DNA from: Methanosphaera sp. BMS
GTDB lineage: Archaea; Methanobacteriota; Methanobacteria; Methanobacteriales; Methanobacteriaceae
Direction of reading: 5' to 3'
DNA length: 64,000 bases
NCBI RefSeq assembly: GCF_003268005.1
Contig: NZ_CP014213.1
Span: 1,674,001-1,738,000, forward strand
The translations under genes were made by a program, and so were the position numbers. Under the pieces are notes generated by a model, which worked only from the letters and a program-made list of their open reading frames with translations, was not told where the DNA came from and did no database searches. Below, in pieces: positions 20,928 to 23,749 of this stretch; positions within the stretch are counted from its first letter, which is position 1; each line of letters opens with the position of its first letter.

Positions 20928-21845
20928 ATGATAAATACCCGAATAGCATACATTGAACCTAACTCAATGGCCAAGATATCTACCGCGATGACTTTGATTG
21001 GAAGCATAATTGCGTTAGTTATTTCAATAATTGCAATGATTTTATTAGTTAGTTCTGTACCACAATTAAAGTCATATGCTTCAAATAATGTTTCATTGTT
21101 TGTTATTCTCGGAATCATCATAGGCCTTTTAATAACGTTAATAATGAACTATATTCTGACATACCTAAATGCGTTATTATACAATTACCTGTTAAAATAT
21201 TTTACAGGAATACAAGTTGAATTAACGCCTCATAATGAAATCAAAGAAATAGATATCATTCCAACGTTAAGTATAAACATAATCATCTCGGCGATTTGGT
21301 TTATAATTATAGGAATAATATTATTTTTAACATTTTCAGTAGTATTGTCAGCGTTAAGTCACGTGACAAGTGTATTTGGTAACTTAAACCTTGCCACAAT
21401 TACTACCAGTTCATTAGTGGTCGTTACATTAGTCGTGTTAATAGCGTTGATCTTTTTGGGAATTATATTGGTTATCACAATGTTCATATTTAATTTCTAT
21501 GCTAGACGAAATCCGTTGAAATTGGATATAACGGAAAACAATGGACTTGAATTGAAATCCATAGATGTTATGAGTTACGTGATGAGTATTGGGCTAACCA
21601 CATTAACTATACAGTTAATAAGAACACTGATAAATATTATGGTTGGTGGAAGTATGGAAGTTGCTTTACTTAGTATAGTAAACACAATAGCAATTTGTTT
21701 GATATTTGCAGCCGCTGTACCCTACATCTATAATTTTATTGCTTCAAAATTTGGTGGTTTGAAGTTTGATATTGAACCTAGCAGCAATATGATTCAGGAA
21801 TATCCGGTTACTGATAATTTAACAGAATCCGATATTCAACAATAA
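20928..21845 (+). CDS. multipass membrane protein of unknown function
   Basis: The 305-residue protein has six or seven hydrophobic segments (about residues 20-45, 52-78, 110-140, 155-185, 213-232, 240-262). The cytoplasmic loops contain two similar stretches, YFTGIQVELTPHNEIKEIDI and ASKFGGLKFDIEP near the end, plus RNPLKLDITENNGLELKSIDV, suggesting an internally repeated architecture of membrane hairpin plus a short beta segment. AGGAGG precedes the ATG, so expression is likely strong. I do not recognise the family. A hairpin terminator follows. Confidence 0.75.
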   Translation: MINTRIAYIEPNSMAKISTAMTLIGSIIALVISIIAMILLVSSVPQLKSYASNNVSLFVILGIIIGLLITLIMNYILTYLNALLYNYLLKYFTGIQVELTPHNEIKEIDIIPTLSINIIISAIWFIIIGIILFLTFSVVLSALSHVTSVFGNLNLATITTSSLVVVTLVVLIALIFLGIILVITMFIFNFYARRNPLKLDITENNGLELKSIDVMSYVMSIGLTTLTIQLIRTLINIMVGGSMEVALLSIVNTIAICLIFAAAVPYIYNFIASKFGGLKFDIEPSSNMIQEYPVTDNLTESDIQQ

Positions 21846-22132: not shown

Positions 22133-23323
22133 ATGAGTAATGAAAAAATTGTAGATAATAATCCAGAAAACTGTAAACCAAAACATATTAAAGGAGCAAA
22201 TCCTAAATCTGTTCGTAATTTACACAAGAATACGATTAAACCAAAAAGTGCATCAGAAGATGTGAATATTGACAAAAATCCTTCTTCAGAAGACACAGAA
22301 TACCAAAACGCTGCCAGTTATATTAAATCAAAACTAGACATTAAATTAACTAAAAGAAACAAACCAGGATTATCAGAGATAATTCTCAGAAAAAATGAAG
22401 AGAGAAAACAGAAAGAACAAGAATTAAAAGCAAAAGCCGAAGCTGAAAAAGCAAAACTTGAAGCCAAAAAACAAGAAAAAGAACAAGAATTAAAAGCAAA
22501 AGCCGAAGCTGAAAAAGCAAAAGCTGAAGCTAAAAAACAAGAAAAAGAACAAGAATTAAAAGCAAAAACTGATGCTGAAAAAGCAAAAGCTGAAACAATA
22601 ATAGAAAAAGCAAAAGAAGAAACCAAAACAATGAAAGATGTTGTCAAAGAAGAAATCAAAGGAGCTACAACAAAAGTCAAAGAAAACATTGGAGAAGCCA
22701 AAACAAAAGTTGAAGAAGAAGCAACCAAAGTCAAAGAAGAAGCCAAAGTAATCAAAGATGTTGTCAAAGAGGAACTTAAACCAAAACCTAAAGAAGAAGC
22801 AAAAGCTGAAGCAGAACCAGCACCAACAGGGCCTTCATTCACACAACAACTAAGACAACAAAACAAAATACAAACAGGAACACTAGAACAAACAGAAACA
22901 CCAGAAAAAGAAACAAAAACAGAAACACCAAAACCAGAAACAAAAGAAGCACCAAAAGCAGAAGCAGAACCAGCACCAGCAGGACTTTCATTCACACAAC
23001 AACTAAGACAACAAAACAAAATACAAACAGGAACACTAGAACAAACAGAAACACCAGAAAAAGAAACAAAAACAGAAACACCAAAAGAAGAAACTAAAGA
23101 AGCACCAAAAGCAGAAGCAGAACCAGCACCAGCAGGACTTTCATTCACACAACAACTAAGACAACAAAACAAAATACAAACAGGAACACTAGAACAAACA
23201 GAAACACCAAAAGAAGAAACTAAAGAAGAAGCTAAAGAAGCACCAAAAGAAGAAGCTCCAGCTGAAAGTACCGGTGAAGTAAAAACATTTATTGATTTGA
23301 TAAGATCTGAAAAATTACTTTAA
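22133..23323 (+). CDS. coiled-coil and tandem-repeat protein, possible multivalent scaffold
   Basis: This 396-residue hydrophilic protein has no signal peptide or membrane segment and so is probably cytoplasmic. Residues 1-85 are Asn/Lys-rich. Residues about 94-160 are a Lys/Glu/Ala coiled coil made of 22-residue units. Residues about 160-225 are further charged helix. Residues 225-370 are three 51-residue repeats, each with an SFTQQLRQQNKI box in a Pro/Glu/Thr-rich linker. The C-terminus ends in a related box, TFIDLIRSEKLL. The repeats are nearly identical in DNA, so duplication is recent. A gene for phosphomevalonate dehydratase small subunit starts 21 bases later. Function is unknown. Confidence 0.8.
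   Translation: MSNEKIVDNNPENCKPKHIKGANPKSVRNLHKNTIKPKSASEDVNIDKNPSSEDTEYQNAASYIKSKLDIKLTKRNKPGLSEIILRKNEERKQKEQELKAKAEAEKAKLEAKKQEKEQELKAKAEAEKAKAEAKKQEKEQELKAKTDAEKAKAETIIEKAKEETKTMKDVVKEEIKGATTKVKENIGEAKTKVEEEATKVKEEAKVIKDVVKEELKPKPKEEAKAEAEPAPTGPSFTQQLRQQNKIQTGTLEQTETPEKETKTETPKPETKEAPKAEAEPAPAGLSFTQQLRQQNKIQTGTLEQTETPEKETKTETPKEETKEAPKAEAEPAPAGLSFTQQLRQQNKIQTGTLEQTETPKEETKEEAKEAPKEEAPAESTGEVKTFIDLIRSEKLL
22412..22606 (+). repeat. 66-bp tandem repeat encoding the coiled coil
   Basis: Three consecutive 66-bp units each encode 22 residues beginning KEQELKAK. The first two are almost identical; the third is diverged and incomplete. The 22-residue period is three heptads plus one residue. Confidence 0.8.
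22808..23230 (+). repeat. 153-bp tandem repeat (three copies)
   Basis: Equivalent points at 22835, 22988 and 23141 are exactly 153 bp apart (51 codons). The copies differ at few positions, while the last is shortened at its 3' end. The same synonymous codons recur, which indicates recent expansion or ongoing homogenisation. Confidence 0.9.
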
Positions 23324-23344: not shown

Positions 23345-23749
23345 ATGTCTAATGAGATTAAATGTAGAGTAATATCAAAAGGAATTGAAGAAGGAGAAGC
23401 TATTGTAACTAAAGATTCCATAAGCTTTTTAGGTGGAGTTGACCCTGATACAGGTATTGTTATTGATAAAAAACATGAACTGTATGACCAATGTATAACC
23501 GATAAGATATTAATCATTCCTTCAGGAAAAGGTTCAACGGTAGGTTCATATGTTATTTATCAAATGATCAAAAACAACACCGCTCCAAAGGCAATAATTT
23601 GCCAAAATGCTGAGCCCATCATTGCAATTGGTGCTATAATATCCAAAATTCCTATGGTCGATCAACCTGATGTTGATATTATCAACCTCATTAAATCAGA
23701 TGATTTGGTTAAAGTAAACGCTGACGAAGGATATATTCAAATCCAATAA
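23345..23749 (+). CDS. phosphomevalonate dehydratase small subunit (DUF126, aconitase X swivel domain)
   Basis: The 134-residue swivelling domain protein pairs with a large aconitase-X subunit to dehydrate mevalonate 5-phosphate in the archaeal mevalonate route to isoprenoid lipids. Recognisable features are [18 protein letters not shown], the [16 protein letters not shown] loop that binds phosphate, and the conserved [19 protein letters not shown] precedes the ATG by ten bases. The large subunit is not in this window. The gene follows the repeat protein by 21 bases and is likely in the same transcript, although no functional link is evident. Confidence 0.87.

Follow-up and report, generated by a model that had tools for sequence, protein, structure and literature searches.

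A short peptide repeated in a scaffold-like protein and shared with unrelated proteins suggests a membrane-linked assembly in Methanosphaera

Introduction

Proteins that carry many copies of one short peptide on flexible linkers are candidates for bringing other proteins together. The window analysed here, a stretch of 64,000 nucleotides (bases 1674001-1738000 of the 2.87-Mb genome of Methanosphaera sp. BMS), encodes such a protein directly upstream of an aconitase X gene, which raises the question of what its repeated peptide is for and whether the peptide belongs to this protein alone. Among the matches listed from non-subscription sources, nothing was found on such a tag or scaffold in Methanosphaera, and a term search of the main text of a gene-transfer paper on M. 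stadtmanae (PMC3445992) found no mention of Lon, protease, NADH oxidase or Alba. The analysis suggests an undescribed system that gathers the scaffold and several tagged proteins into one assembly, probably at the membrane.

Results

Architecture of the scaffold-like protein

The features of the locus are collected in Table 1. The protein matches no family in Pfam at E ≤ 0.1 or in NCBIfam at E ≤ 0.001, in line with an earlier note on this DNA, which had recognised none. The architecture described in that note, namely a 22-residue coiled-coil repeat, three 51-residue repeats each with one motif, and a related motif as the last residues, was recovered by repeat search and motif positions. The 66-nt repeat (22412-22594/22621) comprises 2.8-3.2 copies with 94/88% matches, and the 153-nt repeat has 94% matches over 2.9 copies; SFTQQLRQQNKI starts at residues 235, 286 and 337 with spacings of 51 and 51, and the chain ends with TFIDLIRSEKLL at 385-396. 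The similar GLSEIILRKNEE before the coiled coil (residue 79) scored too low and was ruled out as a motif copy; in the orthologs it forms a separate conserved element, PGxSxIIxRKN.

Table 1. Coordinates, in window positions, of the scaffold-like gene, its elements and two reference genes.
Feature	Position	Strand	Basis and remarks
Scaffold-like protein, 396 aa	22133..23323, stop included	+	ORF list and orthologs
Conserved N-terminal segment, residues 1-95	22133..22417	+	Ortholog alignment; ends with PGLSEIILRKNEE and a few residues
PGLSEIILRKNEE element, conserved across orthologs, no motif copy	22364..22405	+	Ortholog alignments and motif score
Long helix (predicted), residues 80-211, holding the 22-residue repeats (22412-22621)	22370..22765	+	Repeat search and AlphaFold
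153-nt (51-residue) tandem repeat, 2.9 copies	22778..23224	+	Repeat search
Putative docking motif 1, SFTQQLRQQNKI, residues 235-246, predicted helix 236-242	22835..22870	+	
Putative docking motif 2, residues 286-297, predicted helix 287-293	22988..23023	+	
Putative docking motif 3, residues 337-348, predicted helix 338-344	23141..23176	+	
C-terminal motif TFIDLIRSEKLL, residues 385-396, predicted helix 386-392	23285..23320	+	
Aconitase X small subunit (DUF126), no motif match	23345..23749	+	21 nt downstream of the scaffold; conserved neighbour
Canonical untagged Alba, 90 aa	56653..56925	+	Contrast to the tagged second Alba, G000:C1:49925-50641

The residues E, K, R and D make up 41% of the protein, and a scan of its sequence detected no hydrophobic stretch long enough to span a membrane. 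The three in-protein motif copies are near-identical in DNA, indicating recent duplication, so the copies alone prove little; they were rejected as a sign of selection, and cross-species conservation alone counts. An antisense ORF of 284 aa (minus strand, 22318-23172) overlies the repeats; it probably arises from the repetitiveness of the coding strand, and nothing marks it as a gene.

An AlphaFold2 model built on an alignment of six orthologs contains one long helix (residues 80-211, block-of-ten pLDDT 74-95 with a last block of 66), a further helix at 57-75 and linkers of pLDDT 33-42. Each of the four motifs is modelled as a short helix (block pLDDT 58-77). The mean pLDDT is 62 and the pTM 0.23, and no packing is therefore claimed. 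The motif helix is predicted to begin after S/T and to end before G/N, which would resemble an N-capped helix with a C-cap.

Orthologs and conservation of the motif

Relatives in named records are titled Methanosphaera (6 of 8) or uncultured Methanobacteriaceae (2 of 8). The comparison covered 20 Methanosphaera genomes, including that of the window (G000), 118 other genomes of the family and a phylum set of 151. Whole-protein matches at E ≤ 0.001 were obtained in 17 of the 20 genus genomes, and an 818-aa ORF at the same locus in G001 is the eighteenth, so motif-bearing orthologs were found in 18 of 20. As to the other two, Ns occupy the scaffold locus in G006, and the G013 locus holds ThiC, a TM305-like gene and aconitase X with no scaffold ORF and no Ns in between. 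The ORF lacks the N-terminal segment in G018 and is interrupted by Ns in G005. In the 13 other genomes measured, with both genes on one contig, the ortholog is co-directional with the aconitase X small-subunit gene and precedes it by 13-83 nt. The identity of this neighbour in the window is secured by PF01989 (128.5 against a cut-off of 27 bits) and NF003046 (197.1 against 163 bits).

The N-terminal segment was matched at E ≤ 0.1 in 17/20 genus genomes. Outside the genus, 3/118 family genomes gave weak matches, none stronger than E 0.02-0.08; the best of these three lies inside a 474-aa peptidase-like frame, whose HEFGH we read as a peptidase signature, and was taken as chance. Viral origin of the scaffold was rejected, as phage records held no whole-scaffold relative and viral contigs none of the N-terminal segment. 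Two observations concern the surroundings of the gene. A 305-aa hydrophobic, membrane-protein-like ORF without Pfam or NCBIfam match lies between ThiC and the scaffold in G000 and G005, and in G013 a relative is flanked by ThiC and aconitase X (window 20928-21845 and L062:4932-5876). In G011, the aconitase X small-subunit gene is accompanied by a partial second copy (L060:1804-2091), the two lying about 1 kb apart.

In a pattern-free alignment of nine orthologs, S, F, T, Q, L, R, Q and I are invariant in two motif copies, and the linkers, unlike the motifs, change in length and sequence. A pattern-based tally of 69 instances in the 18 ORFs gave Q/D/E at the fourth motif position in 69/69, G/N at the tenth in 68/69 and I/L at the twelfth in 66/69; the invariance of its S/T, F, L/I and R/K columns is imposed by the search pattern and was not counted as evidence, and neither was the choice of rows in profiles A3 and A4, likewise picked by search pattern. 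The evidence counted for conservation is the pattern-free alignment together with the genome-wide profile matches described below. The motif core codons vary synonymously, including both TCN and AGT serines, and pN/pS is 0.11 for six core codons of the first motif in each of 16 genomes; by this codon record the motif is under purifying selection. The coiled-coil stretch varies among orthologs and thus looks like a spacer.

Contig ends truncate four of the 18 ORFs (G002, G014, G015, G017). The 14 that are complete at the C-end carry 3-6 motifs each, and 12 of them end exactly on a motif, the remainder having 9 (G003) and 6 (G011) residues after the last one. Conservation among orthologs, on which the earlier note had staked its reading, is thus borne out, with motif residues kept and linkers drifting, and the multivalent design that it proposed agrees with the motif number of the complete orthologs, the low-confidence linkers and the short helix predicted for each motif.

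The tag on other proteins

A profile search for the motif, also proposed in the earlier note, recovered it across the genus and additionally on four unrelated protein classes. The 12-residue consensus is roughly [S/T/N]F-x-[Q/D/E]-x-[L/I]R-x-x-[G/N]-x-[I/L], and in each of these classes a single tag sits at or near an extreme end, away from the folded domain: at the N-terminus of Lon, of a second Alba and of a small protein, and at the C-terminus of a flavoprotein resembling CoA-disulfide reductase. Three profiles were used, one of 45 scaffold motif instances only, one mixed (27 rows) and one of C-terminal copies (21 rows). The scaffold-only profile by itself matched Lon, Alba, small charged proteins and a pyridine nucleotide-disulphide oxidoreductase in the same genomes; its weak matches at E ≤ 1 in 35/118 other family genomes (best 0.0405) are chance, as expected of a short profile.

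With the mixed profile at E ≤ 10 in seven genomes, all matches below E 0.01 fell within five classes (scaffold, Lon, flavoprotein, second Alba, small protein), and the next were a scaffold copy at 0.08 and four unassigned matches at 0.27-1.6. At E ≤ 0.05 across the 151 phylum genomes, the same profile matched 19/20 genomes of the genus versus 0/131 others, with one match outside the five classes, in G001. The C-terminal-copy profile returned the same five classes for all matches under E 0.2 in 11 genomes and recovered the flavoprotein tag of the window's own genome. The tag set is confined to Methanosphaera among the genomes searched. The G001 match is an internal DNLSFTQKIRQEQQIQT (E 0.0012) in a glycosyltransferase-like frame, so named by reading its sequence (L306, G001:C31:137185-137235), and is either a lone sixth carrier or chance.

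The one genus genome outside these counts is G013, which gave no mixed-profile match at E ≤ 10 and only 0.635 with the scaffold-only and 1.1 with the C-terminal-copy profile. The N-end of its Lon and the C-end of its flavoprotein are off the contigs, so G013 is not a full negative; its use as a clean negative was withdrawn in part, the scaffold being absent at the gap-free ThiC-TM305-AcnX locus and two client ends lying off contigs. Together, these searches alter the earlier interpretation in substance: its outline of a scaffold stands, but the motif is not private to that scaffold and defines a genus-wide tag set.

Properties of the tagged proteins

Lon was found at E ≤ 1e-60 in 20/20 genus genomes versus 9/118 other family genomes. 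The Methanosphaera enzyme is a bacterial-type LonA, and that of the window's genome scores 852.8 bits with TIGR00763 against a cut-off of 608.05. Its tag is clear in 18/20 genomes, at residue 7-15 (in G005 at 30, counted from the first listed start); in G006 it is diverged and no usual start codon lies in frame, and in G013 the N-end is missing as noted. Among Lons of other genera the tag occurs in 0/8 with a readable start, the ninth (G023, two fragments) being excluded. A midpoint-rooted Lon tree groups the 19 motif-bearing genomes in a single clade (96/95); G013 falls outside it on a long branch flagged as unsure by the program. The tree fits a single origin of the tag as a compatible picture rather than proof.

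The flavoprotein gene is present at E ≤ 1e-80 in 19/20 genus genomes, and in 17 of these 19, including the window's genome, its tag starts 10-13 residues before the C-terminus; the exceptions are G006, where it is masked, and G013, where a contig end cuts it. Two of the tags carry N instead of S/T (G014, G017). Pfam classifies the protein as a pyridine nucleotide-disulphide oxidoreductase, and the G003 copy reaches 373.4 bits with TIGR03385, below the cut-off of 578.8, so it is named CoADR-like only. More distant second homologs exist in G009, G010 and G017. The gene adjoins a nitrogenase-like gene in 14/14 loci compared (L136:3877-4938 and 13 others); this neighbour, which we take to resemble cfbD of F430 synthesis, hints at a redox role of the flavoprotein.

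A tagged second Alba occurs in 9/20 genomes, eight of which also encode an untagged Alba, G006 being the one that does not. The assignment to Alba rests on TIGR00285 (111.5 bits for L133 and 112.7 for L149 against a cut-off of 88.25). In G005, Ns separate the tag from the Alba domain, and G008 has an Alba-2-like fragment with its N-end off the contig. The tagged small protein was found in 16/20 genomes and not in G006, G009, G013 or G015. Its C-end is a strongly hydrophobic stretch (membrane helix) 0-5 residues from the end in 13 of the 16 and an amphipathic helix in the other three (G008, G012, G019); either form would be compatible with a membrane-attached protein whose tag faces the cytoplasm. 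None of the three small proteins scanned against Pfam (E ≤ 0.001) reached a curated cut-off, and neither did the G012 copy.

A candidate partner family

An orphan family of about 116 aa (e.g. L133:1355-1711 and L131:2909-3256; alignment A8) is encoded directly upstream of the tagged Alba in 9/9 loci. In 7/16 genomes (G000, G005, G007, G008, G010, G014, G019) the tagged small-protein gene has a paralog of this family in its vicinity. In seven others (G001, G002, G003, G004, G012, G016 and G018), stretches of 17-20 kb reaching 7-12 kb to either side of the small-protein gene contained no member, nor did the surroundings of the Lon, flavoprotein and scaffold genes in G003 and G016. G011 was viewed over 2.4 kb only, and G017 is represented by its Alba-side copy only. 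An E 0.03 match in a 396-aa frame of L322 was taken as chance. Searches of the family against Pfam and NCBIfam gave chance-level matches only, as did solved-structure profiles (best E 0.14), and viral contigs held no relative. With no member seen near the small-protein gene in seven genomes, the neighbourhood searches do not support the family as a universal receptor; judged by gene order, it is a possible partner of the tag or of Alba-2.

Discussion

A peptide that is strongly selected, fixed in sequence, free in position and attached to otherwise unrelated proteins is most readily understood as a docking address. The 12-residue peptide is likely to be a shared docking tag, and multivalent co-assembly of the tagged proteins is probable, with less assurance; whether the assembly is membrane-linked is an even call. 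If the peptide is a docking tag, its receptor is more probably than otherwise separate from the tagged proteins. Several copies in the scaffold would make it the cross-linker, the membrane part of the small protein would make it the tether, and Lon, the flavoprotein and Alba-2, with one copy each, would be clients.

In the proposed mechanism, the tag would fold on binding as a short N-capped helix held in one common putative receptor groove. The scaffold, with its long helix as spacer and its 3-6 tags, would cross-link receptors, the small protein would tether the complex to the cytoplasmic face of the membrane, and Lon, the flavoprotein and Alba-2 would be recruited as clients. The outcome would be a membrane-linked proteolysis, redox and nucleic-acid hub, clustered or condensed. 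The whole explanation of docking tag, cross-linking scaffold, membrane tether and recruited clients, built on comparative sequence evidence, is given a probability of about 0.62. Points that weigh against it are the patchy presence of the tagged Alba-2 (9/20 genomes) and of the small protein (16/20), the limited linkage of the one candidate receptor family to tagged genes, and the modest pLDDT of the motif blocks in a model built on six aligned sequences.

The alternative that survives best, unlikely as it is, is homotypic assembly, in which the motif would bind itself in small helix bundles, with the scaffold nucleating, the single-tag proteins joining and no separate receptor. It agrees with the fact that no receptor was found, and F, L and I can share one face of the predicted helix on an inferred wheel; the single-chain model, with its pTM of 0.23, speaks neither for nor against it. 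The conserved polar residues S, T, Q and R and the helix-stop G/N, however, look like the imprint of a specific pocket and not of plain amphipathic packing.

A second alternative centres on Lon, the single-tag client seen tagged in the largest number of genomes (clear in 18/20). Protease signals often take the form of terminal tags on flexible linkers, and the motif might be a degron or a Lon-regulating peptide, with the other four classes as substrates or adaptors and Lon's own copy as a tethered self-inhibitor. Yet Lon bears the tag itself, a degron would be unusual in 3-6 copies on a single scaffold and on a membrane-anchored protein, and the eight untagged Lons of other genera mean that the Lon site for the tag would need to be new. 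This explanation is regarded as improbable.

Less credit still is given to a modification site, in which the conserved S/T would be read by a modifying enzyme such as a kinase and have no assembly role. In the pattern-free alignment, the S of two motif copies never varies and the T of the C-terminal motif is S or T in 9/9 rows, but conservation extends to the hydrophobic F, L and I and to the G/N stop, N replaces S/T in the flavoprotein tags of G014 and G017, and repetition in one protein together with a membrane form fits docking better. Least probable of all is a private scaffold of the adjacent aconitase X, which we take to be mevalonate phosphate dehydratase and whose subunit the earlier note had put forward as partner: the argument for it is co-directional adjacency (same strand, 21 nt apart in the window and 13-83 nt in 13 other genomes), but the enzyme contains no motif match, 110/118 out-of-genus family genomes have its gene and no motif match below E 0.04, and the tag sits on unlinked, unrelated proteins.

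The preferred reading of a docking tag has counterparts in known systems. The encapsulation and cargo-loading peptides of bacterial microcompartments and encapsulins are short terminal peptides linked to unrelated enzymes, much like the client tags via their linkers; here, a multi-copy scaffold and a membrane-anchored form bear the same tag too. The bacterial degradosome is likewise organised by a long disordered scaffold, RNase E, which attaches to the membrane and bears short docking elements, yet it provides a separate docking site for each client, whereas scaffold and clients bear the same element here. In the alpha-carboxysome, the disordered scaffold CsoS2 and a disordered N-terminal peptide of CsoSCA are described, in the part of the source available, as binding overlapping Rubisco sites (PMC10614612). 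Scaffold and terminal client peptide thus appear to target one hub, as proposed here, although the two motifs differ in that system and a protein shell is present, in contrast to the one common motif of Methanosphaera.

The closest likeness in design is to the pyrenoid. According to the accessible portion of one source, EPYC1, RBMP1/2 and SAGA1/2 of Chlamydomonas have a common Rubisco-binding motif found in Volvocales only, and the motif-bearing membrane proteins RBMP1/2 are proposed as tethers (PMC10473226). As far as that account goes, three traits recur in Methanosphaera as design and not as sequence: one short motif in several copies on a disordered linker protein, the same motif on unrelated proteins including membrane ones, and restriction to one lineage. 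The receptor, in contrast, is Rubisco there and putative only here; the system lies in another domain of life with Lon, flavoprotein and Alba as clients, and no homology is known, so the likeness is by design alone. A bolder version of the preferred reading, held tentatively and somewhat short of even odds, is an archaeal membrane-linked, motif-addressed compartment, in which a genus-specific address peptide would send LonA, the flavin oxidoreductase and the second Alba to a scaffold-cross-linked, membrane-pinned condensate or cluster, the pyrenoid design having been reached independently with different parts.

If true, this reading would describe an archaeal protein assembly addressed by a motif, its parts named to residue level, and would provide an independent test of the pyrenoid rule that one docking peptide can build a compartment from linker, tethers and clients. 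It offers a ready test set of at most five genes per genome, one motif, species with or without given clients, and mutations expected to abolish assembly. It would also point to the working site of Lon and a redox enzyme in a common genus of gut methanogens.
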